A stretch of 64,000 nt of DNA. Source: Sphingosinicella sp. Its GTDB lineage: Bacteria > Pseudomonadota > Alphaproteobacteria > Sphingomonadales > Sphingomonadaceae. How positions within the stretch are numbered: the stretch's first letter is position 1; every line of letters begins with the position of its first letter. The notes beneath the pieces are model-generated. The model saw only the letters and a program-made list of their open reading frames with translations, was not told the origin of the DNA and ran no database searches. Below are positions 21,987-41,378 of this stretch, piece after piece. The stretch spans positions 81,087-145,086 of the forward strand of contig NZ_JACESP010000007.1 in the NCBI RefSeq assembly GCF_013911755.1, given 5' to 3'. A program made the translations under genes and the position numbers.

Positions 21987-22543
21987 CCACCGAAACCGAA
22001 ACCGGCGCTCCGCCCTCGGCTGATCGCACGCTGCTGCTCGTCGACGACGACAACGCCTTTCGCCAGCGGTTGGGCCTGACGCTCGAGCGCCGCGGTTACA
22101 CAGTCGCGGCCGCCGCGAGCGTTGCAGAGGCGCGCGGCATCGCGGCCGAACTGAAGCCGGCGTACGCCGTGCTCGACATGCGGCTTGGCGACGGCAACGG
22201 GCTCGACCTCGTCGCGGAGCTGCGGGCGCTCAGGCCCGGCATCCGCATCGTGATGCTGACCGGCTACGGCAACCTCGCCACCGCTGTCGCCGCGGTGAAG
22301 GCAGGCGCGGTCGATTATTTGCCCAAGCCCGCCGATCCCGATGCGATATTGAACGCGCTGCTCGCGCCCGGCGAGGCAAAGCCCGCGCCGCCCGAGGAGC
22401 CGATGTCCGCCGACCGCGTGAAGTGGGAGCATATCCAGCGCGTCTACGAGCTGTGCGACCGCAACGTTTCGGAAACCGCACGGCGGCTGAAGATGCACCG
22501 GCGCACGCTGCAGCGTATCCTCTCGAAACGCTCGCCGCGTTAA
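21983..22543 (+). CDS. regA: RegA/ActR/PrrA-type response regulator
   Basis: A 186-residue regulator with a receiver domain (acidic DDD at 21 to 23, phospho-acceptor Asp65 in VLDMRLGDGNG, Lys in YLPKPAD). A proline hinge leads to a Fis-type helix-turn-helix ending in VSETARRLKMHRRTLQRILS, nearly invariant among RegA proteins. It controls respiration, carbon and nitrogen genes in response to redox state. Overlaps regB (ATGA) and, by 4 bases, the convergent mmcB. Confidence 0.94.
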   Translation: MTTETETGAPPSADRTLLLVDDDNAFRQRLGLTLERRGYTVAAAASVAEARGIAAELKPAYAVLDMRLGDGNGLDLVAELRALRPGIRIVMLTGYGNLATAVAAVKAGAVDYLPKPADPDAILNALLAPGEAKPAPPEEPMSADRVKWEHIQRVYELCDRNVSETARRLKMHRRTLQRILSKRSPR

Positions 22544-23019
22544 GATAACTCCCCAAAAAACGGGTCTTCGGAGCGCTGGAAGCGGCTTGCCGCGAGCCGG
22601 CCGAAGCGCAGGATTTCCGTGCGTCGCCTTGCAGCAGGCAGCGGGCTTGCAGGGGCGTTGCGCAGAATCGCCGCGTCGAAGCGATCGGCAACAATCACAC
22701 CGCTGATTTCCGGCCGGAATGCAGGTTCATCGAGGATCGCAGCGGGAATGTGCGGCGGCACCGCCCAGAAGAAGCGGTCGCAGAAGTCGAGATAATCGGG
22801 CCACTTCATGTCGCCGCGCAGATCGGCGAGTGAGACCTTCACCTCGCAGATCACGATCTCGCCCTTCGCATCGATCGCATACACGTCGGCACGGCGGCCG
22901 TTGCGCAGCGGCACCTCGGCAAGCGCGGCAAGACCGAGATGATGGAACATGCGCGTGACCCCGCGCACGACGTCGCAGGCGACCATGGGCGATTCGGCGG
23001 AAAGGGCGGCAAGATTCAT
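22540..23019 (-). CDS. mmcB: MmcB family DNA repair protein
   Basis: A 159-residue protein of the MmcB family, with a PD-(D/E)xK-like core visible as RRADVYAIDAKGEIVICEVKVSLADLRGD. In Caulobacter MmcB is an SOS-controlled protein linked to mitomycin C resistance. No LexA box was identified by eye here. A GTG three codons upstream is an alternative start. Convergent with regA. Confidence 0.85.
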   Translation of the reverse strand: MNLAALSAESPMVACDVVRGVTRMFHHLGLAALAEVPLRNGRRADVYAIDAKGEIVICEVKVSLADLRGDMKWPDYLDFCDRFFWAVPPHIPAAILDEPAFRPEISGVIVADRFDAAILRNAPASPLPAARRRTEILRFGRLAASRFQRSEDPFFGELS

Positions 23020-23059
23020 CCGCCGCACTCTAGCAGAACAGGACGGGAACGAAAGTGGC

Positions 23060-23734
23060 CTAGCGGTAGAAGACGTGACCGCCGATGCGGCGCGTCTGTT
23101 CCTTCACGCGGCGCCAGCCGGGCTTCACGTAAGTTGCGTGGAAGAACGTCGCCTTGTCGGTCACGTCCTGCCACCCCTGACCTACGGCGATGATCGCGAT
23201 GGCTTCGGCGCGCTTCCATGCCGGGCCTTTGACGGCGGGAACATCGGGCTTGCCGTCGAAGGTGAAGGAGAATTGCCCATTCTGGTAGACCACGGCGCAG
23301 ATATCATCGGGCCAGCGCTCGTTCGCAGCGCGATTGAGGACGACCTGCGCGACGGCGAGCTGGCCTTCGAGCGATTCGCCGCGCGCCTCGTAGTAGATCG
23401 CGCTGGCGAGACAGCGCATATCATCCTCAAGTTCGCTGCGGTGCATGTCGGCGACATCACCGACGAGCGCCGCAAGATCGATGGGGGGCGCAGGTTCCTC
23501 GGAGATCGAGAGGCCGACGCGTGGCGTCTGGTCCACATCGAGTTCGCTTTCGAGGCGAACCGGCGAGAAGGGCAGGCCCTGCTGAACGGCGCTCGGCACA
23601 TTGAGCGCGATCGCGGTGGGTTCGAGATTGCTGACGATGTGATCGCCCGCCACCGGGGCGGCGCTCGGCCAGACCATCGCGATCATCGCCGCGCAAAACG
23701 CGACGAGGCTGATGCCCCGTATGGATTTCGACAT
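23060..23734 (-). CDS. Cell wall hydrolase, SleB-type
   Basis: A 224-residue exported protein with an N-terminal hydrophobic signal/anchor. Its C-terminal Hydrolase_2 (SleB-like) domain starts at LASAIYYEARGESLEGQLAVAQVVLNR, and the catalytic glutamate lies in YYEARGE. The family cleaves peptidoglycan glycan strands. The middle (residues 40 to 95) is a low-complexity linker. It is not a sporulation gene here; the fold is widespread in alphaproteobacteria. Confidence 0.87.
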   Translation of the reverse strand: MSKSIRGISLVAFCAAMIAMVWPSAAPVAGDHIVSNLEPTAIALNVPSAVQQGLPFSPVRLESELDVDQTPRVGLSISEEPAPPIDLAALVGDVADMHRSELEDDMRCLASAIYYEARGESLEGQLAVAQVVLNRAANERWPDDICAVVYQNGQFSFTFDGKPDVPAVKGPAWKRAEAIAIIAVGQGWQDVTDKATFFHATYVKPGWRRVKEQTRRIGGHVFYR

Positions 23735-23897
23735 GGAAGGGTCCGCTCGTTGTCCGGGGCTGCCCAAGGGGGCAAACGGGGCCGAAAATCAGGCCGCCAG
23801 CGCCGGGAGTTCAACATCAGCGCCAGCCCAGAAGGCTTGGCACATAATCATTTCGCGGTGCCGATTGCCTTCCGGACAGTCGAAAGTCAAGAAATTG

Positions 23898-24221
23898 TTA
23901 ATCTTTGTCGACAAAACGCCCTGGATTCTCGATATCCAGTTCGACGATCCACAGATCGGGATCGAATTTCCTGCGCTTTTCGAGCGCTTCTTGTGCAGCG
24001 GGATCACGCTCTTCGCGGTTTTCGAAGATCGGCTGCCACGAGACCTTGCCGTCTCCCATATTCACGCGGGAAAGCGCCGTTATCGTGCCGGAAGAATCGC
24101 GCAGGAGAAGCAGAACGGCGCCCGAATCAGGCTCGCCCTTGGCAAGGACGGTCGCGAATCCGCCCGCGGCCTCTACCCGGCGGCGAAGCGCGCCGACCCA
24201 AAAATCCGTCTTGATTCGCAT
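23898..24221 (-). CDS. DUF1491 family protein
   Basis: A 107-residue protein of DUF1491 (MRIKTDFWVGALRRRVEAAG at the start, GDGKVSWQPI in the middle, DPDLWIVELD at the end). Function unknown; the family is typical of alphaproteobacteria. It follows the PilZ gene after 8 bases in the same direction. Confidence 0.85.
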   Translation of the reverse strand: MRIKTDFWVGALRRRVEAAGGFATVLAKGEPDSGAVLLLLRDSSGTITALSRVNMGDGKVSWQPIFENREERDPAAQEALEKRRKFDPDLWIVELDIENPGRFVDKD

Positions 24222-24229
24222 CGCGCCGA

Positions 24230-24598
24230 TCAGGCGCTTGCAACGGCCGCGTGTCCAGGCTGATCGGGCTTGGCATCGAGCAGGCCGAGCATCCGCGCCT
24301 TGTCGCCCAGCCGCTGCAGCCCGCCCGAATCGCCATCGACGAAGACGAGACCCATCAGCCCCTGATCCGCCCACGCGACAAGGCACGGAAACGTGCCGTA
24401 TTTGGGGAGGAACAGGTGAAGCGCGGTGCCCTTCGCCAGCATCTGCTTGCAGGCGATGCGGGCACCGCTTGTCGAGATGTCGCGCACAATGCACCCGAAC
24501 TGCCGGTCGATCAGGCGCACCTCGCCCTTGAACACGACCTGACGGCGGCCCGCGAGACGCGCCGCCTTGCCTTCAGCCTGGGTGGTTTCGATGCTCAT
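24230..24598 (-). CDS. PilZ domain protein
   Basis: A 122-residue stand-alone PilZ-type protein. RLAGRRQVVF corresponds to the RxxxR segment and VRDISTSGARIAC to the DxSxxG segment that bind cyclic di-GMP in the family, so binding is plausible. No partner domain is attached. It overlaps the ptsN stop by four bases and sits in a ptsN-PilZ-DUF1491 run. Confidence 0.8.
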   Translation of the reverse strand: MSIETTQAEGKAARLAGRRQVVFKGEVRLIDRQFGCIVRDISTSGARIACKQMLAKGTALHLFLPKYGTFPCLVAWADQGLMGLVFVDGDSGGLQRLGDKARMLGLLDAKPDQPGHAAVASA

Positions 24599-25053
24599 GC
24601 TGCTTCGCTATGCCCGACTCCGCTTAAAAGCACGTAAAGAGCGTCACTGTTGTTGGTGCCGCGCAGCTTGTCGACAAGACGCCGATCCCGGAACATGCGG
24701 CTGATCTGCGCAAGCGCCTTCAAGTGATCTGCGCCCGCATCCTCGGGCGCGAGCAGCATGAACACGAGATCCACGGGTTGCCGATCGATCGCATCGAAAT
24801 CGATCGGCGGATCGAGCTTAGCGAACAGACCCTGCACGGACTTCAGTTCGGACAGCCGCGCGTGCGGCACGGCAACGCCCCCGCCGAGCCCGGTGGAGCC
24901 GAGTCGTTCGCGCTCGAGAAGCACCTCCATGATCCGCGCCTCGGGCACGTTCACGATGGGCGCGGCAAGCGCGGCGAGCTGCTGGAGCAGGGCCTTCTTG
25001 CTGCCGGCGCGGAGTCCGGTGTGGACCGTTCGCGGTGTGACGAGATCGAACAT
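24595..25053 (-). CDS. ptsN: Nitrogen PTS IIA component
   Basis: A 152-residue EIIA-Ntr protein with the phosphorylated His64 in GGVAVPHARL and RERLGSTGLGGG upstream. EIIA-Ntr is a regulatory phospho-carrier that adjusts potassium transport and nitrogen or carbon metabolism rather than sugar uptake. It follows the hpf gene by 51 bases, an arrangement shared with many proteobacteria, but rpoN is not next to it here. Confidence 0.94.
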   Translation of the reverse strand: MFDLVTPRTVHTGLRAGSKKALLQQLAALAAPIVNVPEARIMEVLLERERLGSTGLGGGVAVPHARLSELKSVQGLFAKLDPPIDFDAIDRQPVDLVFMLLAPEDAGADHLKALAQISRMFRDRRLVDKLRGTNNSDALYVLLSGVGHSEAA

Positions 25054-25104
25054 GGCTGAACTTATATCCCGGACCGTCTGGAAGGGCCGTTAACGCGCCG
25101 CCGC

Positions 25105-25689
25105 TCAGGCGGCGGGCGGTTCGACCCAACCGATGTGCCCGTCTTCGCGGCGGTACACCATGTTGTAGGCGCCCGTGCGGCTGTTGCGGAACATCAGCGC
25201 GCCGGTGTGCCGGAGATCAAGCATCATCACCGCGTCTGAAACGCTCGCATCGGGAATGTCGACGCGGGTTTCGGCGACGATGAGCGGGTTGTCGGCGCTC
25301 TCTCCAGCCTCTTCCACCTCGTCGTCGGCAGCACGCAGCACGCGGTATTCCGCGTCGAAAGCGACATCTTTCACGCCGTTGAGGCGGTGATGGTCTTCGA
25401 GCCTGCGCTTGTAGCGGCGCATCTGCTTGTCGATCTTTTCGGCCGCACCGTCGAACGCAAGCTGCGCGGTTTGCATTGCCCGGTCCGACGCCTTCAGCAC
25501 GAGACCCTGCGTCAGTTGCATCAGGATGTCGCACACGAATCCGGCATCATGGGGGCCCGGCTTGAGCGTCACGTTCGCGCCGGTGGCGCGCACGCCGTAT
25601 TTCTGCACCATCGCGCCCAGACTGGTTTCGATATGCGCTGTCAGCGAAGCGCCGACATCGATCTGCTGACCTGAAACGCGGATATCCAT
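25105..25689 (-). CDS. hpf: Ribosome hibernation promoting factor, long form
   Basis: A 194-residue protein with an N-terminal HPF/YfiA domain (DIRVSGQQIDVGASLTAHIE, KIDKQMRRYKRRLEDH) and the C-terminal long-form domain (ALMFRNSRTGAYNMVYRREDGHIGWVEPP), which pairs ribosomes into 100S dimers in stationary phase. AAAGGA lies before the ATG. Confidence 0.94.
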   Translation of the reverse strand: MDIRVSGQQIDVGASLTAHIETSLGAMVQKYGVRATGANVTLKPGPHDAGFVCDILMQLTQGLVLKASDRAMQTAQLAFDGAAEKIDKQMRRYKRRLEDHHRLNGVKDVAFDAEYRVLRAADDEVEEAGESADNPLIVAETRVDIPDASVSDAVMMLDLRHTGALMFRNSRTGAYNMVYRREDGHIGWVEPPAA

Positions 25690-25757
25690 TTCGGCCCATC
25701 CTTTCTTCTTGGCCTCGCCCGCCGGTTTGCGGGGCGATGACGGGTAACGTGTTACAG

Positions 25758-25777
25758 AACGCGCAGGGTTGCGCGTT
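25758..25777 (-). terminator. Hairpin downstream of dnaQ
   Basis: A perfect 8-bp stem (AACGCGCA with TGCGCGTT, loop GGGT) 16 bases after the dnaQ stop. There is no T run, so it may be a weak terminator or a Rho-dependent end, or act in the hpf leader. A second small inverted repeat (GTAAC-GT-GTTAC, 25744 to 25755) is next to it. Confidence 0.4.
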
Positions 25778-25792
25778 CGACCCCAACATGAC

Positions 25793-26479
25793 TCATCCTG
25801 CGCCAATCTGCTCCCACAGCGGATTTTTGAGCAGCCTGAGAAAGGCAGCGTGCCGCGCCAGCTCTTCAGGCGTCGCGGCGTGCGGGCGGGGCGCCACGTA
25901 GCTGCGTTCGACGCGGATCGCAACCGTTTCCTCGTGCACGGTTATCTGGCCAAGCGACATTCCGATCTGACGCCCGCCCATGAGCTCGACGTAAACGCGT
26001 GACAGCAGCTGCGCGTCAAGCAGCGCGCCATGCTTGTCGCGCGCGGTCAGATCGATGCTGAACCGGGCGCACAGCGCATCGAGCGAATGCTTCGCGCCGG
26101 GAAACTTCTTGCGCGCCATGACGAGCGTGTCGTCAACGCGTTCGATCGGAATCTGGTCGTGCCCGCAGTTGCGCAGTTCCCAGTTGAGGAAGCGGCGGTC
26201 GAACTCGGCATTGTGCGCAATCAGCCGCGCATCCCCGACGAACGCAATAAAATCGGCAGCGATCGCGGCAAAAGGAGGTTTGTCGGCAAGAAACCTGTCG
26301 GAAAGCCCGTGCACCGCCTCGGCCTCCGCGGGCATGGGCCGGCACGGATTTATGTACGCGTGGAACGTACGCCCCGTTTCGATACGGTCGACGAGTTCGA
26401 CGCAGCCGATCTCGCAGATGCGATGCCCGTCCGACGGGTCGAGACCGGTCGTCTCGGTGTCGAAGATGACCTCACGCAT
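25793..26479 (-). CDS. dnaQ: DNA polymerase III epsilon subunit (proofreading exonuclease)
   Basis: A 228-residue DEDD exonuclease: ExoI VIFDTETTGLDP (Asp7, Glu9), ExoII IAHNAEFDRRFL, ExoIII KHGALLDAQLL (HGALxD). It proofreads for the replicative polymerase. The C-terminal tail should bind the alpha subunit. The ATG start lies inside the 3' end of the coaE reading frame, which overlaps it by about 130 bases. Confidence 0.96.
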   Translation of the reverse strand: MREVIFDTETTGLDPSDGHRICEIGCVELVDRIETGRTFHAYINPCRPMPAEAEAVHGLSDRFLADKPPFAAIAADFIAFVGDARLIAHNAEFDRRFLNWELRNCGHDQIPIERVDDTLVMARKKFPGAKHSLDALCARFSIDLTARDKHGALLDAQLLSRVYVELMGGRQIGMSLGQITVHEETVAIRVERSYVAPRPHAATPEELARHAAFLRLLKNPLWEQIGAG

Positions 26480-27087
26480 GACTTGCAATATCGGACTCCA
26501 TGGCGCCGGAGACAAGAGACGAGATGACGGATTTCGGTGCGGGTTTCGCGCAGGCTTTGGCCCGTGTCGATCACGAAATCAGCGCGACGGCGCTTTTCCC
26601 TGTCGCGCATCTGAGTCGCTAGGATGGCGAGGAATTTTTCGCGGCTCATGCCCGGCCGCGCCAGCACGCGGCGGCGCTGCACATGCGCGGGCGCCGACAC
26701 CACAATGGTCGCGTCGACATGCGCATGACCGCCGCCTTCGAAAAGGAGCGGAATATCAAGCGCGACGATGGCGATACGGTTATGCCGCGCCGCTTCCAGA
26801 AACGCCATTTGCGCCTGCCGCACCATAGGATGCACGATCGCCTCGAGTCGGCGGCGCGCTTCGGCGTTGCCGAACACCGCGGCGCCGAGTTTCGGGCGGT
26901 CGACCCCCTTGGGGCCGGTCGTGCCCGGAAATGCTGCTTCGATCGGCGCGAGCGCCGCGCCGCCGGCGCCTTGCAACCGATGAACTTCGGCATCGGCATC
27001 GAACACCGGCACGCCCGCGCGCCGCAGCATCGACGCGACGGTCGACTTGCCCATGCCGATCGAGCCGGTGAGTCCGAGGATGATCAT
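26350..27087 (-). CDS. coaE: Dephospho-CoA kinase, with unusual C-terminal extension
   Basis: Catalyses the last step of coenzyme A synthesis. P-loop GLTGSIGMGKST at the start, DADAEVHRL, IVHPMVR and IPLLFEGGGH are normal CoaE motifs. The family is usually about 200 residues, but this frame runs to 245. The last 46 residues are serine/arginine-rich and lie over the start of dnaQ in another frame, so they are probably not a folded domain. Another frame would stop exactly at the dnaQ start, so a frameshift is possible. Overlaps aroE by four bases. Confidence 0.9.
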   Translation of the reverse strand: MIILGLTGSIGMGKSTVASMLRRAGVPVFDADAEVHRLQGAGGAALAPIEAAFPGTTGPKGVDRPKLGAAVFGNAEARRRLEAIVHPMVRQAQMAFLEAARHNRIAIVALDIPLLFEGGGHAHVDATIVVSAPAHVQRRRVLARPGMSREKFLAILATQMRDREKRRRADFVIDTGQSLRETRTEIRHLVSCLRRHGVRYCKSCVRSSSTPRRPVSTRRTGIASARSAASNSSTVSKRGVRSTRT

Positions 27088-27896
27088 TGCGTGAGCAGAG
27101 CCTTGAGTTCGTCCTCGCAGCCTTCGGGCGGGGCAGCGCCGAAGAACAGCGAAAACGCGATCGCGGCCTGGCCGACCAGCATTTCGAGCCCGTCCACGGT
27201 TTCGAGGCCCTGAGCCGCCGCTGCCTTCAGAAGCGCCGTTTCGCGCGGGCTGTAGACGATGTCGTAGACGACCGCATCGTCGGGGAGCGGCGAGAGGTCG
27301 AGATCGAGCGGCGGCTGGCCGGTCATGCCGAGCGCACTCGCGTTCACCAGCAGCGCGGCTTCGGGAAGCGGAGCGTCGAGCGGTTTCGCAGATCCCTTGA
27401 GGCCGAATGCGGCGAGCAGGCCCATCGCTTTCAAAGGGTTGCGGTTGAGCACGGTCACCGGGCCGACCTTCGCTTTCGACAAGGCAAAGAGGACAGCGCG
27501 CGCCGCACCGCCCGCGCCGACGACCGCAACCGGCCGGCCTTCGAGATCGAGGCCTGCGATCGGCGCGAAGAAGCCGCCGGCATCAGTGTTCGTCCCGAAC
27601 AAGGTGCCATCCTCGGCGCGCGCGATCGTGTTCATCGCGCCGATACTCGCGCGCACCCCGCCCGGGTCGGCAACATGATCCATCACCGCGATCTTGTGCG
27701 GAATCGTGACGTTGCAGCCGCGCCAGTCCGCATCGTCCCGGCGGCTTTCGATATAGGCGGCGAGGTCTTCGGCCTTCACGTGCGCGCGGCGGTAGTCCCC
27801 AGCAATGCCGAGCCGATCCAGCCAGAATTTATGAATGAGCGGCGACTTTGAATGGCTGATCGGATCGCCGATCACCTCGGCATAGGGCAGGGTCAT
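27084..27896 (-). CDS. aroE: Shikimate 5-dehydrogenase
   Basis: A 270-residue NADPH-dependent enzyme of aromatic amino acid synthesis, reducing 3-dehydroshikimate. The shikimate-binding segment (GDPISHSKSPLIHKFWLD), catalytic Lys in CNVTIPHK, and the NADP loop VVGAGGAARAVLFAL are all present. Four-base overlaps with maf before it and coaE after it show tight coupling. Confidence 0.96.
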   Translation of the reverse strand: MTLPYAEVIGDPISHSKSPLIHKFWLDRLGIAGDYRRAHVKAEDLAAYIESRRDDADWRGCNVTIPHKIAVMDHVADPGGVRASIGAMNTIARAEDGTLFGTNTDAGGFFAPIAGLDLEGRPVAVVGAGGAARAVLFALSKAKVGPVTVLNRNPLKAMGLLAAFGLKGSAKPLDAPLPEAALLVNASALGMTGQPPLDLDLSPLPDDAVVYDIVYSPRETALLKAAAAQGLETVDGLEMLVGQAAIAFSLFFGAAPPEGCEDELKALLTQ

Positions 27897-28492
27897 ATCG
27901 GCATCACGCTGCGGGTTCTGAGATAATCGAGCACGGGGAGGAGCGGCAGGCCACGGATGGTGAACTGGTCGCCATCGACGCGCGCGAACAGCTGCGCGCC
28001 GCGCCCCTCGATATGATAGCCGCCGACCGATCCCAGCAGGACATCGCCGCACGCGTCGAGATAGGCTTCAAGAAATGCGTCCGAAAAGTCCCGCATCGCG
28101 AGCCTGGCCACGCCGACGAACCGCCACACGGGGGTGCCGTTCTCCGCCACGACAGCTGCGGACACCAACCGGTGGGTGCGGCCGCGCAGCATCCGCAGCT
28201 GGCGGGCGATCGTTTCCCGGTCGGGCGCCTTGTCGATCATCGTGCCGTCATCGAGCGCGACAACCGAGTCGCTGCCGAGAACCAAGACGCCGGGCAGTTT
28301 GCGCGAGATTTTCACCGCCTTGGCCTCGGCGAGCGCATCCGCCACGCCGCGCGCGTCCGTGCCCTCGGCGGCAAGCGCACGCTTGAGTTCGGCCTCGTCG
28401 ACCATCGGCGCCAGCGCCTCGAACGGCACGCCCGCTGCCGTCAGCATCGCCTGCCGGGACGCGCTCGTCGATGCGAGAACGAGTGACGTCAT
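27893..28492 (-). CDS. maf: Maf family nucleotide pyrophosphatase
   Basis: A 199-residue Maf-like protein: LVLASTSASRQAMLTAAG at the start and VLGSDSVVALDDG around the catalytic aspartate. The family hydrolyses non-canonical or pyrimidine nucleoside triphosphates and has been linked to septum control. Overlaps ppsR and aroE by four bases each. Confidence 0.93.
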   Translation of the reverse strand: MTSLVLASTSASRQAMLTAAGVPFEALAPMVDEAELKRALAAEGTDARGVADALAEAKAVKISRKLPGVLVLGSDSVVALDDGTMIDKAPDRETIARQLRMLRGRTHRLVSAAVVAENGTPVWRFVGVARLAMRDFSDAFLEAYLDACGDVLLGSVGGYHIEGRGAQLFARVDGDQFTIRGLPLLPVLDYLRTRSVMPI

Positions 28493-29319
28493 GCCGCCGA
28501 GCCGTTGGCGCGCGCCTCGGCGCGTTCGTTGTAGAGGTTGATGATGGCGGCCGCCGACTCCTCGATCGAACGGCGTGACACATCGATCACCGGCCAGCTG
28601 TTGTCGGCGCAAAGCCGCCGCGCCGCCGCGACCTCCTTCGTCACTTCGTCCATATCGACGTACGATGTCTCTGGTGCCTGCGCGAGGCTGAGCAGCCGGT
28701 TGCGGCGTACCTGCACCAGCCGGTCGGGGTTGGTGGTGAGGCCGACGACCAGCGGCTTCGACAGGCGAAAAAGCTGATCGGGTGGGCGGCTCGTCGGCAC
28801 CAGCGGCAGGTTCGCGGTCTTGTAGCCACGGTTCGCAAGATAGATCGAGGTCGGCGTCTTCGAGGTGCGCGAGACGCCGATCAGCAGGATATCGGCCTCT
28901 TCCCAATTGTCGGCGCCCTGCCCGTCGTCGTGGTTCATCGTGTAGTCGATGGCGGCGACGCGGCGGAAATACGCCTCGTCCATCTGGTGCTGACGGCCGG
29001 GCCGGGCGGCCGCGCGCTGGCCGAGCACCGTCTGCAGGCCCTCGATCACGGGATCGAGCACACCCACAGCCGGCAAACCCATCGCGCGGCAGCGTGCCTC
29101 GAGGTGGCTGCGCATATCGGCGTTGACGAGTGTGAACAGCACGAGGCCGGGGCGGCTCGCGATATCCATCAGCACGCGGTCGAGGTGGCCCTTCGATCGA
29201 ACAAGCGGCCAGAAATGCTTGATCGTCTCGACGTCCTCGAACTGCGCGAGGCCGGCTTTCGCAACCGATTCAAGCGTTTCGCCGGTCGAATCGGAAACGA
29301 GATGCAAGTGCAGCCGCAT
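28489..29319 (-). CDS. ppsR: PEP synthase/PPDK regulatory protein (DUF299 kinase-phosphorylase)
   Basis: A 276-residue bifunctional enzyme that uses ADP to phosphorylate and phosphate to reactivate PEP synthase or pyruvate phosphate dikinase. The P-loop is GVSRTSKT (148 to 155); VSDSTGETLESVAKA opens the protein. Length is normal. It is the first gene left of the proposed origin and leads the ppsR-maf-aroE-coaE-dnaQ run, the same order found beside the Caulobacter origin. Confidence 0.95.
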   Translation of the reverse strand: MRLHLHLVSDSTGETLESVAKAGLAQFEDVETIKHFWPLVRSKGHLDRVLMDIASRPGLVLFTLVNADMRSHLEARCRAMGLPAVGVLDPVIEGLQTVLGQRAAARPGRQHQMDEAYFRRVAAIDYTMNHDDGQGADNWEEADILLIGVSRTSKTPTSIYLANRGYKTANLPLVPTSRPPDQLFRLSKPLVVGLTTNPDRLVQVRRNRLLSLAQAPETSYVDMDEVTKEVAAARRLCADNSWPVIDVSRRSIEESAAAIINLYNERAEARANGSAA

Positions 29320-29622
29320 GTATCGCCTCCTGCCGCGCGGTTGTGGATAAGCCCCCGGACGACTCGATTAAGGACTCACGGGATAACCGGCAAGCGGGTG
29401 GTCGTTCATCCTCCCGCCGGTCGGCAAGGGCAGATCATCCCCAGGTGGACAATCCGAAACGCGTCCTGTGAATTCGGTGGATAAGTCGAGCCCCGCGATG
29501 CAAACCCACGCGAGGCTTCATCCGGCTGCGTCATGCTTGCCTGTGGACTTCACAGGAAACCCCGTTATCCCCAGCCCAACAATCAACCAAATCCATTTCT
29601 ATATATTTATAAGAGAAGAGAT
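29320..29622. other. oriC: Proposed chromosomal replication origin (oriC)
   Basis: A gene-free gap between divergent ppsR and hemE. DnaA-box matches (consensus TTATCCACA): perfect at 29342 to 29350 (minus strand), one mismatch at 29476 to 29484 (minus) and 29565 to 29573 (plus). Two-mismatch sites start at 29378, 29435 and 29444. An AT-rich tract (about 29577 to 29622) lies next to hemE and could be the unwinding element. The position between hemE and a DUF299 gene is that of the Caulobacter origin, and genes diverge from it. Confidence 0.75.
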
Positions 29623-30645
29623 ATGGGGTTCCGGTCCTTGCTCGCAGTGCTGAACGGTGAACGACAGGCCGTGCCGCCCGTGTGGTTCATGCGTCAGGCG
29701 GGGCGCTATCTGCCCGAGTATCGCGCGCTTCGTGCCGAGAAGGGCGGCTTTCTGGCGCTCGTGTACGATAGCGACGCCGCCGCGGAAATCACACTGCAGC
29801 CGATCCGGCGCTTCGGCTTCGACGGCGCGATCCTGTTTTCGGATATCCTGATCGTACCGCACGCGATGGGCCAGACGCTGACGTTCACGGCAGGCGAAGG
29901 TCCACAGCTCGCGCCGCCGCTTGCGAATGCCCGCTTGGAGGATTTGAGCGCCGCGCCGCATCACCTCGATGCGATCTACGAGACGGTTCGCAAGGTTGCA
30001 GCCGCGCTTCCAGGCGAAACCACGTTTCTGGGCTTTGCAGGAGCGCCCTGGACGGTCGCGACCTACATGGTCGCGGGAGAGGGCAGCCGGGACCAGGCAG
30101 CGGCGCGCTTGATGGCCTACAAGGAGCCTAAGCGCTTCTCGGCGCTGATCGATGCGATCGTGGACGTCACCGTGGATTATCTCGCGGGCCAAGTCGCTGC
30201 GGGCGCTCATGCGGTGCAGATCTTCGACAGCTGGTCGGGCAGTCTCGCACCGGATGAATTCGATCGCTGGGTGATCGCGCCGACACGCGCGATCGTGGAG
30301 CGGCTGAAGGCGCGCGCGCCAGTTCCGATCATCGGTTTCCCCAAGGGCGCTGGCGGCAATCTGCCGCGCTATGCGCGCGAAACCGGTGTCGATGCCGTCG
30401 GGCTCGATGAAACCGTGGACCCGGTGTGGGCGGACGCGGTGCTGCCCAAAGGGCTGCCTGTGCAGGGCAATCTCGATCCGTTGCTGCTGCTTGCAGGCGG
30501 GGATGCGCTCCCCGCGGCCGTGCGCCGCATTCGCGAAGCCCTCGGCGCGCGCCCGCATGTGTTCAACCTCGGCCACGGCATCGACAAGGAAACGCCGATC
30601 GCGCATGTCGAGGCCGCGCTCGCCGCGATCCGGAAGCCGCTGTAG
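29623..30645 (+). CDS. hemE: Uroporphyrinogen decarboxylase
   Basis: A 340-residue enzyme that converts uroporphyrinogen III to coproporphyrinogen III in haem synthesis. PPVWFMRQAGRYLPEY and the later AVQIFDSWSG and HGI-type GHGIDKETP segments match the family, including the conserved arginines of the active site. AAGAGAAGAG gives a ribosome-binding site. First gene right of the proposed origin; hemJ starts at the very next base after the stop. Confidence 0.97.
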   Translation: MGFRSLLAVLNGERQAVPPVWFMRQAGRYLPEYRALRAEKGGFLALVYDSDAAAEITLQPIRRFGFDGAILFSDILIVPHAMGQTLTFTAGEGPQLAPPLANARLEDLSAAPHHLDAIYETVRKVAAALPGETTFLGFAGAPWTVATYMVAGEGSRDQAAARLMAYKEPKRFSALIDAIVDVTVDYLAGQVAAGAHAVQIFDSWSGSLAPDEFDRWVIAPTRAIVERLKARAPVPIIGFPKGAGGNLPRYARETGVDAVGLDETVDPVWADAVLPKGLPVQGNLDPLLLLAGGDALPAAVRRIREALGARPHVFNLGHGIDKETPIAHVEAALAAIRKPL

Positions 30646-31098
30646 ATGGAAAGCTGGGTCGGCTGGCTTGGAGCTGCACATCTCTGGGTGCGGGCCTTCC
30701 ACATCATTTTCGTGATCTTCTGGATGGCGGGCATGTTCATGCTGCCGCGCTATCTCGTTTACCAGCACCCCGCCCTGCCCGGTTCCCCGGAGGAGGCGCT
30801 GTGGACGACGCGCATCGCGCGGCTCCGCAAGATCATCGTCGGCCCTGCAATGGTGATGGTCTGGGCGCTCGGCCTTGCGCTCGCCTTCAATCTCGGCTTT
30901 GCGGGCAATGGCTGGCTGTGGGTGAAGCTCGCCATCGTGTTCCTGTTTTCGGGATTCCATGGCTGGATCGTCGGCGTTTCGAAGACGATGGCGCGGGGCG
31001 AACGCCCGGTGAGCGAACGCGGCCTTCGGATGCTGAACGAACTGCCGAGCCTCGTCGCGATCGTCGTGGTGCTGCTCGCGGTGCTCCGGCCTTTCTGA
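30646..31098 (+). CDS. hemJ: Protoporphyrinogen oxidase HemJ
   Basis: A 150-residue membrane protein with four segments, of the HemJ type (HIIFVIFWMAGMFMLPRYLVY with the conserved His, and the RxxNE-type LRMLNELPSL). HemJ oxidises protoporphyrinogen IX in bacteria lacking HemG/HemY. Directly following hemE, it gives two haem steps in one transcript. Confidence 0.92.
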   Translation: MESWVGWLGAAHLWVRAFHIIFVIFWMAGMFMLPRYLVYQHPALPGSPEEALWTTRIARLRKIIVGPAMVMVWALGLALAFNLGFAGNGWLWVKLAIVFLFSGFHGWIVGVSKTMARGERPVSERGLRMLNELPSLVAIVVVLLAVLRPF

Positions 31099-31105
31099 TC
31101 TGCTT

Positions 31106-31132
31106 GACTTCCGGGAAGGCGCTTCCTAAGTC
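31106..31132 (+). terminator. Two-tier hairpin between hemJ and rho
   Basis: GACTT, 3 bases, GGAAG, GCG, CTTCC, one base, AAGTC: two perfect 5-bp stems stacked in one interrupted hairpin, 8 bases after the hemJ stop. No T run follows. It may end the hem transcript, or belong to a rho leader, since rho is commonly self-regulated. Confidence 0.4.
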
Positions 31133-31236
31133 GGGGGTCAAGTCCTCGTTCTGAGGCGCCCGCGCAGGGCATTGTTTCGATTTCAGACGTATCCCCCCTG
31201 GCGCCGATACTTTCACGATTCACCGAAGGCCCCCCG

Positions 31237-32499
31237 ATGGTCATGCACCTTAAAGACCTCAAGAAAAAAACCCCCGCCGACCTCGTTGCCATGGCCGAAG
31301 AGCTTGGCGTCGAGGGCGCGTCCACGATGCGCAAGCAGGATCTGCTGTTCTCGATCCTGAAAGCGCTTGCCGACAACGATGAGCAGATCATGGGCGGCGG
31401 CACCATCGAGGTGCTCCCCGACGGTTTCGGCTTTCTGCGTTCACCCGAAGCGAACTATCTCGCCGGGCCGGACGACATCTACGTGTCGCCGAACCAGGTC
31501 CGGAAGTTCGGTCTGCGCACCGGAGACACGGTCGAAGGCGAGATTCGCGGCCCCAAGGACGGCGAACGTTATTTCGCCCTGACGAAGCTCTCGCTCATCA
31601 ACTTCGACGATCCCGAGCAGGTCCGCCACCGCGTCAATTTCGATAACCTGACGCCGCTCTATCCTGATGAGAAGCTGACGCTCGACACGCTCGACCCGAC
31701 GCTGAAGGACAAGTCGGCGCGCGTCATCGATATCATCGCGCCTCAGGGGAAGGGCCAGCGTGCGCTGATCGTCGCGCCGCCGCGCACGGGTAAAACCGTC
31801 CTCCTGCAGAACATCGCCAAGGCGATCACGGACAACCACCCCGAAGTGTTCCTGATCGTGCTGCTCATCGATGAGCGGCCCGAGGAAGTCACCGACATGC
31901 AGCGCAGCGTGAAGGGCGAGGTCGTCTCCTCGACCTTCGACGAGCCGGCGACGCGTCACGTGCAAGTCGCTGAAATGGTTATCGAAAAGGCGAAACGCCT
32001 TGTCGAGCACAAGAAGGATGTCGTCATCCTCCTCGATTCGATCACGCGTCTCGGCCGCGCCTACAACACGGTTGTGCCGTCGTCGGGCAAGGTGCTGACG
32101 GGCGGCGTTGATGCAAACGCCCTGCAGCGCCCCAAGCGTTTCTTCGGCGCCGCGCGCAACATCGAGGAGGGCGGTTCGCTCTCGATCATCGCCACGGCGC
32201 TTATCGACACCGGCAGCCGCATGGACGAGGTGATCTTCGAAGAGTTCAAGGGCACCGGCAACTCCGAGATCGTGCTCGACCGCAAGGTTGCAGACAAGCG
32301 CATCTTCCCGGCGATCGACGTGGGCAAGTCCGGCACCCGCAAGGAAGAGCTTCTGGTCGAGAGGGACAAGCTTTCGAAGATGTGGGTGTTGCGCCGTATC
32401 CTCATGCAGATGGGCACGATCGATGCCATGGAATTCCTGCTCGACAAGATGAAGGATTCCAAGACCAACGACGATTTCTTCGCGGCGATGAACCAGTAG
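31237..32499 (+). CDS. rho: Transcription termination factor Rho
   Basis: A 420-residue hexameric RNA helicase: N-terminal helix bundle, RNA-binding fold with GFGFLRS (63 to 69), Walker A PPRTGKT (181 to 187), Walker B VILLDS, and the [19 protein letters not shown] and [20 protein letters not shown] segments. Length is normal with no inserted domain. MHL two codons in is an alternative start. Confidence 0.98.
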
Positions 32500-32521
32500 G
32501 CCGAAGGAGCGTTTGGCCCCG

Positions 32522-33268
32522 ATGGATATCAGCCTTCTTTTCTCTGCGGCCGCGGCCGCCGGCGCGAGCAGCCTCGGAGGTCCGGCCGACATCTGGGCGG
32601 CCATCGTCCACGATTTCTCCAATATCGGCTCTCCGACGGCGCTTGCCGCCTTCACACAGGTCTTGCTGATCGACATCGTGCTCGCCGGCGACAACGCCAT
32701 CGTGGTGGGCGCGCTTGCAGCCGGTCTGCCGCCCGATCAGCGCCGCAAGGTGATCGCTATCGGAGTTCTGGCTGCGCTCGTGCTGCGCATCGCGTTCGCG
32801 CTTGTCGTCACGCAGCTCATGCAGATCGTCGGGCTCATCCTGGCGGGTGGGCTGCTCCTGCTGTGGGTCTCGTGGAAAATGTACCGCGAGCTTCACCCGG
32901 CGGGCACAAGCCAGTCTCCGGGATCTCCCGAGATTGCGGGCGACGAGGATTCCGGTATCCGTCCGGCGAAGAGCTTCATCGCTGCGGCCTGGGCCGTTGC
33001 GCTCGCGGACGTTTCGATGAGCCTCGACAACGTGCTCGCAGTGGCGGGCGCAGCGCGCGATCACCCGGGCATCCTGATCGTCGGCCTCGTCCTCTCCGTG
33101 GCGCTGATGGGCATCGCGGCGAACATCATCGCGAAATATATCGAGCGCTATCGGTGGATCGCCTACATCGGGCTTCTCGTGATCATCTATGTTGCGTTCA
33201 AGATGATCTACGAGGGCATCGTCGATCCCTCGGTCGGGGTAATGACGCTCAGTATGTTCGGCGGTTGA
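32522..33268 (+). CDS. TerC family membrane protein
   Basis: A 248-residue inner-membrane protein with about seven segments and two metal-type motifs: LIDIVLAGDNAIVVGALAAG and ADVSMSLDNVLAVAGAA. This pattern belongs to TerC/YjbE proteins; some TerC members export manganese or metallate secreted enzymes. The charged loop near residues 130 to 150 is cytoplasmic. TTG at 32513 is closer to the GGAG site and could be the true start. Confidence 0.88.
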   Translation: MDISLLFSAAAAAGASSLGGPADIWAAIVHDFSNIGSPTALAAFTQVLLIDIVLAGDNAIVVGALAAGLPPDQRRKVIAIGVLAALVLRIAFALVVTQLMQIVGLILAGGLLLLWVSWKMYRELHPAGTSQSPGSPEIAGDEDSGIRPAKSFIAAAWAVALADVSMSLDNVLAVAGAARDHPGILIVGLVLSVALMGIAANIIAKYIERYRWIAYIGLLVIIYVAFKMIYEGIVDPSVGVMTLSMFGG

Positions 33269-33270
33269 CT

Positions 33271-33285
33271 CCGGCCCTGGGCCGG
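33271..33285 (+). terminator. Hairpin after terC-like gene
   Basis: A perfect 7-bp inverted repeat CCGGCCC-T-GGGCCGG, 2 bases after the stop. In RNA it would form a 6-bp stem with a 3-base loop. No T run. Confidence 0.4.
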
Positions 33286-33444
33286 GACAGCATCGGCATC
33301 ATGGATATGCGCAGTCTTTCACGCCGCCTCTGCAGCGGGGGCCAGCTTCTGGCGGGCATCTAGCCCCGGACCCTGACGGCATGTCCCGACGGGTTCGGGG
33401 CAGTTCAGCCGCGTCCCCCCAATGCCGTCAGAAAGACCTGTTCC

Positions 33445-33840
33445 ATGACCGACGCCTCGCGTCCGCCGATTCACCTCATCGATTCCGAGGCCGAAAGGCT
33501 TGGAGATCTCGCTCTCGCCGCGGAAGCGCGCCTTCCCGAGGTCGCGGCACTTCTTCTCCGCGAGATTGAGCGCGCCGAAGTGCACGCTGTTGAAAGCCTC
33601 CCGCGGGGTGTCGTGTGCATGGGTGCGCGCGTTGATTTCATAGACGAGGGCAGTGGCGCGCGCCGCACGGTCGAACTCGTCTACCCGCCGGAAGCGGACA
33701 TGGCAGCGGGCAAGCTTTCAATCCTCTCGCACGTCGGCGCCGGTCTCATCGGGCTCGCCGAGGGCCAGACGATCCACTGGCCGGATCGGAGCGGGGCGGA
33801 GCGCGTGCTCCGGATTGCGACGGTTACGCCGGCAGCATGA
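33445..33840 (+). CDS. Rnk/GreA-type nucleoside diphosphate kinase regulator
   Basis: A 131-residue protein with a short N-terminal helical part and a GreA/GreB C-terminal domain (VCMGARVDFIDEGSGARRTVELVYPPEADMA, then ISILSHVGAGLIGL-like and WPDRSGAERVLRI). Rnk proteins lack the long coiled coil of GreA and bind RNA polymerase without rescuing it. The last 17 bases overlap the convergent quinone oxidoreductase. Confidence 0.82.
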   Translation: MTDASRPPIHLIDSEAERLGDLALAAEARLPEVAALLLREIERAEVHAVESLPRGVVCMGARVDFIDEGSGARRTVELVYPPEADMAAGKLSILSHVGAGLIGLAEGQTIHWPDRSGAERVLRIATVTPAA

Positions 33841-37077: not shown

Positions 37078-37093
37078 TGTTTCACGTGAAACA
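37078..37093. other. parS: parS site 1
   Basis: A perfect 16-bp TGTTTCACGTGAAACA, the bacterial chromosome ParB-binding consensus, in the gap between mnmE and mnmG, about 7.5 kb from the proposed origin. Confidence 0.95.
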
Positions 37094-37117: not shown

Positions 37118-37133
37118 TGTTTCACGTGAAACA
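37118..37133. other. parS: parS site 2
   Basis: Second perfect TGTTTCACGTGAAACA, exactly 40 bases after site 1 in the same intergenic gap, 43 bases before mnmG. Confidence 0.95.
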
Positions 37134-39024: not shown

Positions 39025-39661
39025 AAACCCCGAGGAGCAGCGCGCATGGTTCGCGGCGACCTTCAATGTTTCACGTGAAACATTGGAGAAGCTCGACATC
39101 TATGCTGCGCTGCTCACCGAGTGGCAGGCAAAGTTCAACCTCGTCGGTCCGGCCACACTCCCGCACGTCTGGGTCCGTCATTTTGCCGATTCGGCACAGC
39201 TTCTCCAGCTCATCGCGCGCGAAGGGGCCGCACATCGCCCGACTTGGCTCGACATCGGAAGCGGCGCCGGCTTTGCCGGAATGGTCATTGCGCTGATGAC
39301 CGGTGATTCGGTCACGCTTGTCGATTCGATTCGCAAGAAGACGATCTTCCTTGAAACCGTACGCGCCGCGCTGGGATTGGAGCGAAACGTCAAGGTGTTG
39401 AATCAGCGTGTGGAATCGCTCGGTTCCGTAAAGTTCGATTATATCACCGCACGTGCGTGTGCGCCGCTCGCGAAGCTGTTTGACTGGGGCGAACCCTATG
39501 CTGCAAAGTCCTGCACATGGCTGTTGCTGAAAGGCGCGGCGGTTGAGGACGAGCTTGCGGAAGCCAGGCGCCGCTTCGTTTTCGAACATGAATTGATTCC
39601 CAGTCTTACCGATTCGCGGGGGCGGATCGTGCGGGCGCACAATGTACGGAGGCGTCGGTGA
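39005..39661 (+). CDS. rsmG: 16S rRNA (guanine-N7) methyltransferase RsmG (GidB)
   Basis: A 218-residue SAM-dependent enzyme that methylates G527 of 16S rRNA; loss gives low-level streptomycin resistance. SAM loop [12 protein letters not shown] (82 to 93) and [15 protein letters not shown] are clear. A parS site is embedded in its coding sequence near codon 22 without disturbing the frame. Stop overlaps the parA GTG. Confidence 0.95.
39067..39082. other. parS: parS site 3, inside rsmG
   Basis: Third perfect TGTTTCACGTGAAACA; the palindrome extends three bases further on each side. It encodes part of NVSRETL in RsmG. Confidence 0.95.
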
Positions 39662-40440
39662 TCAGAATCGCGGTGGCTAATCAGAAGGGCGGTGTCGGCA
39701 AGACGACCACTGCCATCAACGTCGCGACAGCGATCGCCGCAACCGGGCGGCGCGTGCTGATCGTTGACCTCGATCCCCAGGGCAACAGCTCAACGGGCGT
39801 CGGTGTCGATCAGAATACCCGTCACCGGACGAGCTACGATGTGCTGATCGGTGCGTGCAGCGCAGCGGATGCGGTCGTTCCCACCGCGATCCCGCGCCTG
39901 TCGCTGATCCCCTCGACGGTCGATCTGTCGGGTGCCGAGGTCGAACTCGTCGAGATGGAGGGGCGCATCCATCGTCTCGACAGCGCGCTGGCGGCGCCGG
40001 CGATGCAGGCTTACGACTACATCATCATCGATTGCCCGCCGTCGCTCGGCATCCTGACGATGAACGCAATGGTCGCCGCACAATCGCTGCTCGTGCCGCT
40101 GCAGTGCGAATTCTTCGCGCTCGAAGGCCTCAGCCAGCTTCTGAACACCGTCGAACGTGTGCGTGCAGGCTACAACCAGCGGCTCAACATCGTCGGCGTG
40201 GTGCTGACGATGTACGACAAGCGCAACCGCCTCTCCGAACAGGTTGCGGCTGACGTGCGTGCCGTGCTCGGCAAGATCGTGTTCGAGACGATCATTCCGC
40301 GCAACGTCCGCCTGTCGGAAGCGCCAAGCCACGGGCTTCCCGCGCTCGTCTACGATCATCGCTGCGCAGGCTCGGAAGCCTATATTGACCTCTCCCGCGA
40401 ACTTCTGGGGCGGACCGAGCCGCACGCTCGCGCCGCCTAA
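39658..40440 (+). CDS. parA: Chromosome partitioning ATPase ParA
   Basis: A 260-residue ParA/Soj ATPase with deviant Walker A KGGVGKTT (10 to 17), LDPQGNSSTG and the DCPPSLGILTMNA switch region. It moves ParB-parS complexes during origin segregation. GTG start overlapping rsmG (GTGA); parB follows after 20 bases. Confidence 0.97.
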   Translation: MIRIAVANQKGGVGKTTTAINVATAIAATGRRVLIVDLDPQGNSSTGVGVDQNTRHRTSYDVLIGACSAADAVVPTAIPRLSLIPSTVDLSGAEVELVEMEGRIHRLDSALAAPAMQAYDYIIIDCPPSLGILTMNAMVAAQSLLVPLQCEFFALEGLSQLLNTVERVRAGYNQRLNIVGVVLTMYDKRNRLSEQVAADVRAVLGKIVFETIIPRNVRLSEAPSHGLPALVYDHRCAGSEAYIDLSRELLGRTEPHARAA

Positions 40441-40460: not shown

Positions 40461-41378
40461 ATGTCTCAGCCTAAGCGTCCCACCGGGCTCGGCCGCGGCC
40501 TGTCCGCCCTGCTCGAGGAAATGGGGAGCGCTGCCGTGCCGCCGCGCGCCGACGCCGGAGCCGCGCCCCCTGCGGTCCCGGCGGGCGACCCGGGTAGCAG
40601 CATGGGCGCGCAGATGCTGCCCATGGCTATGATCTCGCCGAACCCGAAGCAGCCGCGCCGTCGCTTCGACGAGACTGCGCAGGCCGAGCTCATTGCCTCA
40701 GTAAAGCGGCAGGGCTTGCTCCAGCCGATCCTCGTGCGCCCGGTGGACGGCGGCCGGTTCGAGATCGTGGCGGGCGAACGCCGCTGGCGTGCGGCGCAGG
40801 CCGCGCAGCTCCATGATGTGCCCGTGCTCGTCCGTCGCCTCACCGACGAAGAGGCGTTCGAGGTCGCACTCGTCGAGAACATCCAGCGCCAGGACCTGAA
40901 CGCGATCGAGGAAGCCGAAGGCTACAAGCGGCTGATCGAGGATTACGGCCATACGCAGGAAGACATCGCCCGCATCGTCGGCAAGTCGCGCAGCCATGTC
41001 GCGAATCTCGTGCGTCTGCTCGATCTCCCGGATGATGTGCGCGAGCTTCTGATCGACGGGCGGCTCACCATGGGCCATGCGCGCGCGTTGCTCACCGCGC
41101 CCGATCCTTCCGCGCTGGCGCGCGACGTCGTGCAGATGGGTTTGTCGGTCCGCGAGGTCGAGGCGCGGGCGAAGAAGCCGCGCGCGCCCCGCAAGGCCGC
41201 GCCGCGCGAAGCTGCCCGCAGCGCCGATCTCGAATCGCTGGAAGGCCAGCTCGCCGAGCAGCTGGGCCTGCGTGTGCGTCTTGAATATGATGGGGAAGGC
41301 GGAAAGCTGACGCTGTTCTACAGCGATCTCGATCAGCTCGACATGCTCTGCCAGCGGCTTTCGGGCGAACGCTTTTAA
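40461..41378 (+). CDS. parB: Chromosome partitioning protein ParB
   Basis: A 305-residue CTP-dependent clamp: N-terminal GLGRGLSALL that stimulates ParA, CTP-binding GERRWR (105 to 110) with ENIQRQDLNAIEEAEGY, helix-turn-helix (164 to 187, QEDIARIVGKSRSHVANLVRL) that reads parS, and the C-terminal dimer domain. The three parS sites lie in the same operon just upstream. Confidence 0.97.
   Translation: MSQPKRPTGLGRGLSALLEEMGSAAVPPRADAGAAPPAVPAGDPGSSMGAQMLPMAMISPNPKQPRRRFDETAQAELIASVKRQGLLQPILVRPVDGGRFEIVAGERRWRAAQAAQLHDVPVLVRRLTDEEAFEVALVENIQRQDLNAIEEAEGYKRLIEDYGHTQEDIARIVGKSRSHVANLVRLLDLPDDVRELLIDGRLTMGHARALLTAPDPSALARDVVQMGLSVREVEARAKKPRAPRKAAPREAARSADLESLEGQLAEQLGLRVRLEYDGEGGKLTLFYSDLDQLDMLCQRLSGERF

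Follow-up and report, generated by a model that had tools for sequence, protein, structure and literature searches.

Replication origins of the hemE-ppsR type are found in many Alphaproteobacteria. An oriC close to hemE has already been published for Sphingomonadaceae/Sphingopyxis, and because hemE-linked origins are in print for this family (PMC4741004), the location of the origin described here is not new. The published oriC resembles ours in its gene neighbourhood, in several conserved DnaA boxes and in a putative DUE (PMC4741004). Cori of Caulobacter crescentus, between hemE and CC0001, likewise has these flanking genes, along with DnaA boxes and an AT-rich region (PMC1914354, PMC3973325). 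With respect to methylation, an earlier model called for the origin to be fully methylated (PMC2217572), loss of CcrM in Caulobacter left initiation control intact (PMC3973325), and ori2, a repABC origin of Agrobacterium, over-initiates on CcrM depletion (PMC11514494). Among the methylated motifs measured in Sphingomonas sp. AAP5, GANTC was the most abundant (PMC8067484).

In the 64,000-nucleotide stretch of Sphingosinicella sp. DNA analysed here (the window), the corresponding intergenic gap occupies 303 bases (29320..29622, no strand assigned). It is bounded on the left by ppsR (28489..29319, minus strand; DUF299/COG1806, kinase-pyrophosphorylase; PF03618, E 3.3e-94) and on the right by hemE (29623..30645, plus strand; uroporphyrinogen decarboxylase; PF01208, E 1.5e-110), and these domain matches confirm both flanking genes named in the initial annotation. 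We conclude that the gap is very probably the chromosomal replication origin (oriC), of the hemE-ppsR type. The same placement had been proposed in the initial annotation, and it is supported by DnaA boxes, an AT-rich tract, conservation, parS sites and the GC skew of a complete family relative (G015). The host genome comprises 3.63 Mb in 48 contigs, and the closest named hemE loci, at no more than 72% identity, belong to Sphingomonadales. With genes in the window called by ORF length and codon composition, gene-like ORFs point left between 22540 and 29319 and right from hemE up to 33840, and beyond this point directions mix; the reversal of gene orientation first reported at the gap therefore holds locally (22540-33840) but not further to the right.

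The AT-rich tract (29582..29622, no strand), a candidate duplex unwinding element, abuts the hemE start codon, on the side of the gap where it had been placed from the start. Its AT content of 83% over 30 bases is the maximum for any 30 bases in the window, where only two places reach 80%. This position makes the suggested overlap between the hemE promoter and the unwinding element plausible, although the gap (29320-29622) has no match to the sigma-70 consensus promoter, with 0.2 expected by chance. Since the gap is common to two divergent genes, it could alternatively be mainly a ppsR/hemE regulatory region, in which boxes and GANTC motifs belong to promoters under DnaA and GcrA/CcrM control, with the origin located elsewhere; in Caulobacter, GcrA and CcrM act on promoters (PMC3973325, PMC8116508). 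For the reasons given below, we regard this alternative as very unlikely.

The gap contains one perfect and two single-mismatch DnaA boxes, exactly as first noted. Box 1 (TTATCCACA, 29342..29350, minus strand) is perfect, and the central box (TTATCCACC, 29476..29484, minus strand) and the box adjoining the AT tract (TTATCCCCA, 29565..29573, plus strand) each carry one mismatch; in all three, 9 of 9 bases are the same in the five genus members compared. From 29342 to 29573 the boxes spread over 232 bases, matching the earlier figure of about 230. Weak DnaA-like boxes with two mismatches were found at 29435..29443 (TCATCCCCA, plus strand, 9 of 9 bases the same in the genus), 29444..29452 (TTGTCCACC, minus strand, 8 of 9) and 29467..29475 (GAATTCACA, minus strand), the last immediately before the central box. 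The original count of three weaker boxes is about right, the two-mismatch matches numbering four, of which that at 29604 (minus strand) is AT-tract sequence only.

Over the whole window, 10 boxes were seen and 8.9 expected, which is no excess; three of the 10 fall inside the 303-base gap, with a probability of about 1e-5 (Poisson, gap named in advance). The number of boxes alone is not decisive, because about 0.4 chance triples are expected somewhere among the 497 one-mismatch boxes of the whole host genome. Conservation and context, not box number, decide the case. Places were available for 100 of the 497 boxes, and the scan for rival clusters covered the window's own contig (contig 46) and a sample of the complete sister genome, G004 (1.185 Mb, 26%). 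This gap is the sole box triple within 300 bases in contig 46, and in the G004 sample at least three one-mismatch boxes within 303 bases occur only here, which argues against a regulatory region with the origin elsewhere.

Origins beside dnaA are common in many bacteria, and the initial annotation had named this region among those where an equal or greater box density would count against the ppsR-hemE gap. No such density was found in contig 46 or in the 1.185 Mb of G004, and the 3.5-kb dnaA loci of three genus members (G001, G002 and G004) have one one-mismatch box each. In the host, dnaA is on another contig (contig 19), with its upstream region cut off by the contig end; in G004, dnaA lies 721 kb from hemE, away from the skew break. 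An origin next to dnaA is thus extremely improbable. A rival origin near uvrC was also rejected, as one of its boxes is in coding sequence whose conservation is expected in any case, and the other is isolated. These two perfect DnaA boxes are exactly 727 bases apart in four genus members (L091, L295, L296 and L297; 4610 and 5337 in L091; 49609 and 50336 in host contig 6). The intergenic member of the pair lies in a conserved block with TTGTCCCC, the other in conserved coding sequence, and in G004 the pair maps at 3.19 Mb, not far from 3.27 Mb, where the skew places the terminus.

Conservation of the gap was assessed in an alignment of the window with four other genus members (L094-L097; L098, with half of hemE only and no motif match, was left out). 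Across these five members, 44 of 45 bases are kept in the five boxes with conservation values above, compared with 207 of 303 for the whole gap. An inverted repeat read from the sequence, with CCTGTG arms around GACTT (CCTGTGGACTTCACAGG, 29540..29556, no strand), is situated inside a long conserved block that continues into TTATCCCCA and on to the border of the AT tract, and has one variable base among the five members. More broadly, of 80 named relatives, 74 have ppsR running divergently from hemE, at distances of 292-488 bases measured from a motif near the ppsR start; the remaining 6 loci were dropped when ppsR was not found by the motif. Within these 74 loci, the density of TTATNCACA in the gap is 146 times that of the remaining sequence, and 40 of the 74 gaps contain it.

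Partition sites point to the same place. Searched with up to 2 mismatches, the host genome has three parS sites, at 37078..37093 (TGTTTCACGTGAAACA; contig 46, 118164-118179), 37118..37133 and 39067..39082 (no strand), all of them 7.5-9.5 kb from the gap and beside mnmG, parA and parB. The last two genes correspond to a parA-like ATPase (39658..40440, plus strand; PF13614, E 2.8e-62) and parB (40461..41378, plus strand; PF17762, E 2e-33; PF02195, E 3e-33). That host parS sites occur only near this gap again speaks against the regulatory-region alternative. In genus members G001, G002 and G004, three parS sites apiece lie at 7-10 kb from hemE, and a single one of these nine carries one mismatch. 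The family member G130 carries a pair within 8 kb of hemE, of which one is mismatched. In G015, by contrast with the other relatives searched, no match to parS emerged at up to 1 mismatch, and its partition site may be an altered one.

The initial annotation had proposed the skew minimum as a check, and the outcome differed between genomes. Skew in the window and in its own contig was flat and uninformative. In G015 (one contig, 3.38 Mb), sampled in 40 even stretches (24%), the cumulative GC-skew minimum falls between the stretches with midpoints at 2.135 and 2.220 Mb, and the start of the gap is at about 2.2085 Mb; the minimum therefore brackets the gap within the sampling step. The two arms differ with p 2e-4, the bootstrap range is -237 to +441 kb, and 1 of 200 shuffles fits as well. 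A turn of the skew at the gap is a further argument against an origin elsewhere with the gap serving gene regulation. In G004 (one contig, 4.53 Mb), sampled in 60 stretches (26%) that were denser near hemE, the arms on either side of the gap have opposite GC skew (p 8e-6 for a terminus at 3.3 Mb and 2e-5 for one placed opposite), and none of 300 shuffles fits as well as the observed break. The best break is displaced, however, lying at about 1.40 Mb, some 150 kb off (74-198 kb right of the gap, bootstrap 5-95%). AT-skew fits were not significant in either genome, being reached by 40 of 300 shuffles in G004 and 25 of 200 in G015. The G004 chromosome (contig 1) also carries 24 scattered, equal-score matches to the DnaA ATPase model; their copy number points to the helper gene of an IS21-type insertion sequence as the likely identity. 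Rearrangement between these copies could explain the displaced break.

We turn to GANTC, the CcrM-type methylation site. The window gap has two, both GACTC and without strand: at 29361..29365, all 5 bases are the same in five genus members, and at 29373..29377 the sole change in the genus is at the N position (GAGTC in one member). Two sites in 303 bases are not significant alone, because the window average is already 2.03 per kb. Both adjoin box 1, away from the positions kept by two main groups of relatives. A third GANTC, next to the central box, is present in the other four genus members, which read GAATC where the window reads GAATT (29467-29475); the window consequently has one methylation site fewer. 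The host genome encodes both CcrM (match to the solved CcrM, E 3.3e-161) and GcrA (E 1.9e-42).

Among the 74 relatives, every gap contains GANTC, with 345 sites in 26,174 bases (13.2 per kb) versus 97 (sd 9.7) in shuffled gaps. Other intergenic DNA from the same loci, delimited by our own gene calls, has 2.5 GANTC per kb (165 regions), and the 35 divergent regions among them have only 1.6. A divergent promoter region would thus not be expected to resemble these gaps in GANTC density, although GANTC sites at or in the AT tract beside hemE (24 of 74 aligned rows, at one column) are in keeping with a regulatory role. Of 16 palindromes of this form, GANTC is the most enriched (5.3-fold), but TANTA is close (4.6-fold), so the enrichment ratio by itself is not special; TANTA enrichment fits the AT tract. 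After L075-L079 were set aside, 69 gaps remained in the aligned set, and thinning these to 40 with hemE proteins less than 80% identical gave 14.1 GANTC per kb, with all 40 positive. The gaps of L008, L011, L059 and L067 hold 11 or 12 GANTC each in about 300-340 bases. In a wider sample of the class, 123 genomes were matched and 90 loci given, of which 33 were lost because the hemE motif failed to match; 11 of the remaining 57 were without ppsR within 1.3 kb. The 46 members with a hemE-ppsR pair, including the host (L165) and members of its family (L163 and L167), have 6.2 GANTC per kb in the gap versus 1.5 outside, and 41 of the 46 gaps are positive.

The positions of these sites are also constrained. 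Counted without alignment, a GANTC is found 36-38 bases before TGTTGGC in 33 of 34 gaps, with A (18) or C (15) as the middle base, and 18-19 bases after TTGAC/TTGAA in 19 of 20 further gaps, with T (12) or G (7) in the middle; 15 of the 69 gaps fit neither group. On the hemE tree, the middle base has changed at least 7, at least 11 and at least 7 times at three aligned GANTC sites (43, 36 and 24 rows, respectively). The four fixed bases are unchanged in the tree count because rows were selected for having the site, a bias that the alignment-free count avoids. The middle base is invariant at a fourth aligned site (column 470, 22 rows), which counts against the methylation reading. Two finer patterns were rejected. 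Helical phasing of the sites, with offsets near -37, -28, -19 and -9 from TGTTGGC, was not significant in a period test (20 thinned gaps; best period 9.75, reached by 25 of 300 random sets). When two GANTC positions were paired as an inverted repeat, the middle bases matched in 8 of the 12 gaps having both (6 GACTC/GAGTC, 2 GAATC/GATTC), too few to be retained. A fixed GANTC arrangement in Sphingomonadales origins is not described in the titles and abstract openings searched, subscription journals being outside the scope of the search.

CtrA (TTAA-N7-TTAA) and IHF (WATCAN5WTR) sites were sought with the consensus rules used for Wolbachia/Rickettsia origins (PMC1914354). The window gap contains no CtrA consensus, strict or loose, and no IHF consensus. 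A strict CtrA site occurs in 1 of the 74 relatives' gaps (L051), CtrA-like sites with at most one A-to-T change in 3 of 69 Sphingomonadales gaps (4 counts on both strands; shuffles 1.3, sd 1.1), and IHF sites in 5 of 69. In the wider class sample, strict CtrA sites were present in 6 of 57 loci within 400 bases before hemE; as they are rare there too, their absence is not peculiar to Sphingomonadales in that sample. Knocking out CtrA in Sphingomonas melonis impaired neither growth nor viability (PMC8116508).

Taken as an origin, the gap suggests the following sequence of events. DnaA would bind the strong box nearest ppsR, the central box and the one adjoining the AT tract, and would fill the weaker boxes in between. 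The AT-rich tract beside hemE would melt, with forks leaving in both directions, and ParB on the parS sites 7.5-9.5 kb away would segregate the new origins. Much less certain is that once-per-cycle control may come partly from the methylation state of the conserved GANTC sites. Methylation could supply part of this control because CtrA sites are missing, CcrM and GcrA being encoded. In its fullest form, which we put forward tentatively and consider unlikely, origin firing in Sphingomonadales would be licensed by CcrM methylation: the fixed GANTC beside the central box would be read when hemimethylated, by a SeqA-like logic without SeqA. The reader might be GcrA or some other protein, with once-per-cycle control as the outcome, and the genus of the window would be a lineage in which the sites moved next to the ppsR-side box. 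No such reader protein is known here.

Within an origin, the GANTC sites could equally be a device of the hemE and ppsR promoters, with GcrA acting on methylated GANTC and no part in firing, and we put the chances of this at about even. GcrA binds methylated GANTC and works at promoters (PMC8116508), and Caulobacter without CcrM kept normal initiation control (PMC3973325). On the other hand, in both main groups the most constant GANTC is in the middle of the gap, its spacing to other origin motifs being fixed, and other intergenic regions have no similar enrichment. Both observations are compatible with a promoter device; a promoter role for the sites is more likely than gating of firing by methylation, which is possible.

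With the origin of a draft genome placed, its replichores and gene dosage can be worked out. Less expected than the location is that related origins hold methylation sites at fixed positions. GANTC goes unmentioned in the description of the Sphingomonadaceae/Sphingopyxis oriC, as far as the published text consulted extends (PMC4741004). In GANTC-rich repABC origins, CcrM sites are likewise present at an alphaproteobacterial origin (PMC6090056, PMC11514494). The repABC replicons are driven by RepC and do not have a chromosomal origin of the DnaA/hemE type. Escherichia coli oriC, with Dam GATC and SeqA, also has clustered adenine-methylation sites (PMC2865523); methylase and motif differ, and the window gap has only two GANTC. 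In Cori, several GANTC motifs are reported, as in this type of gap (PMC3973325). Five CtrA sites and one IHF site lie in Cori (PMC1914354); searched with the same consensus, the window gap shows neither kind. Most Sphingomonadales origins are without Caulobacter-type CtrA sites, yet their GANTC motifs are under visible constraint. For CcrM control of initiation, the answer in Caulobacter, whose origin has CtrA sites, was negative (PMC3973325); origins of Sphingomonadales reopen the question in a setting without them.
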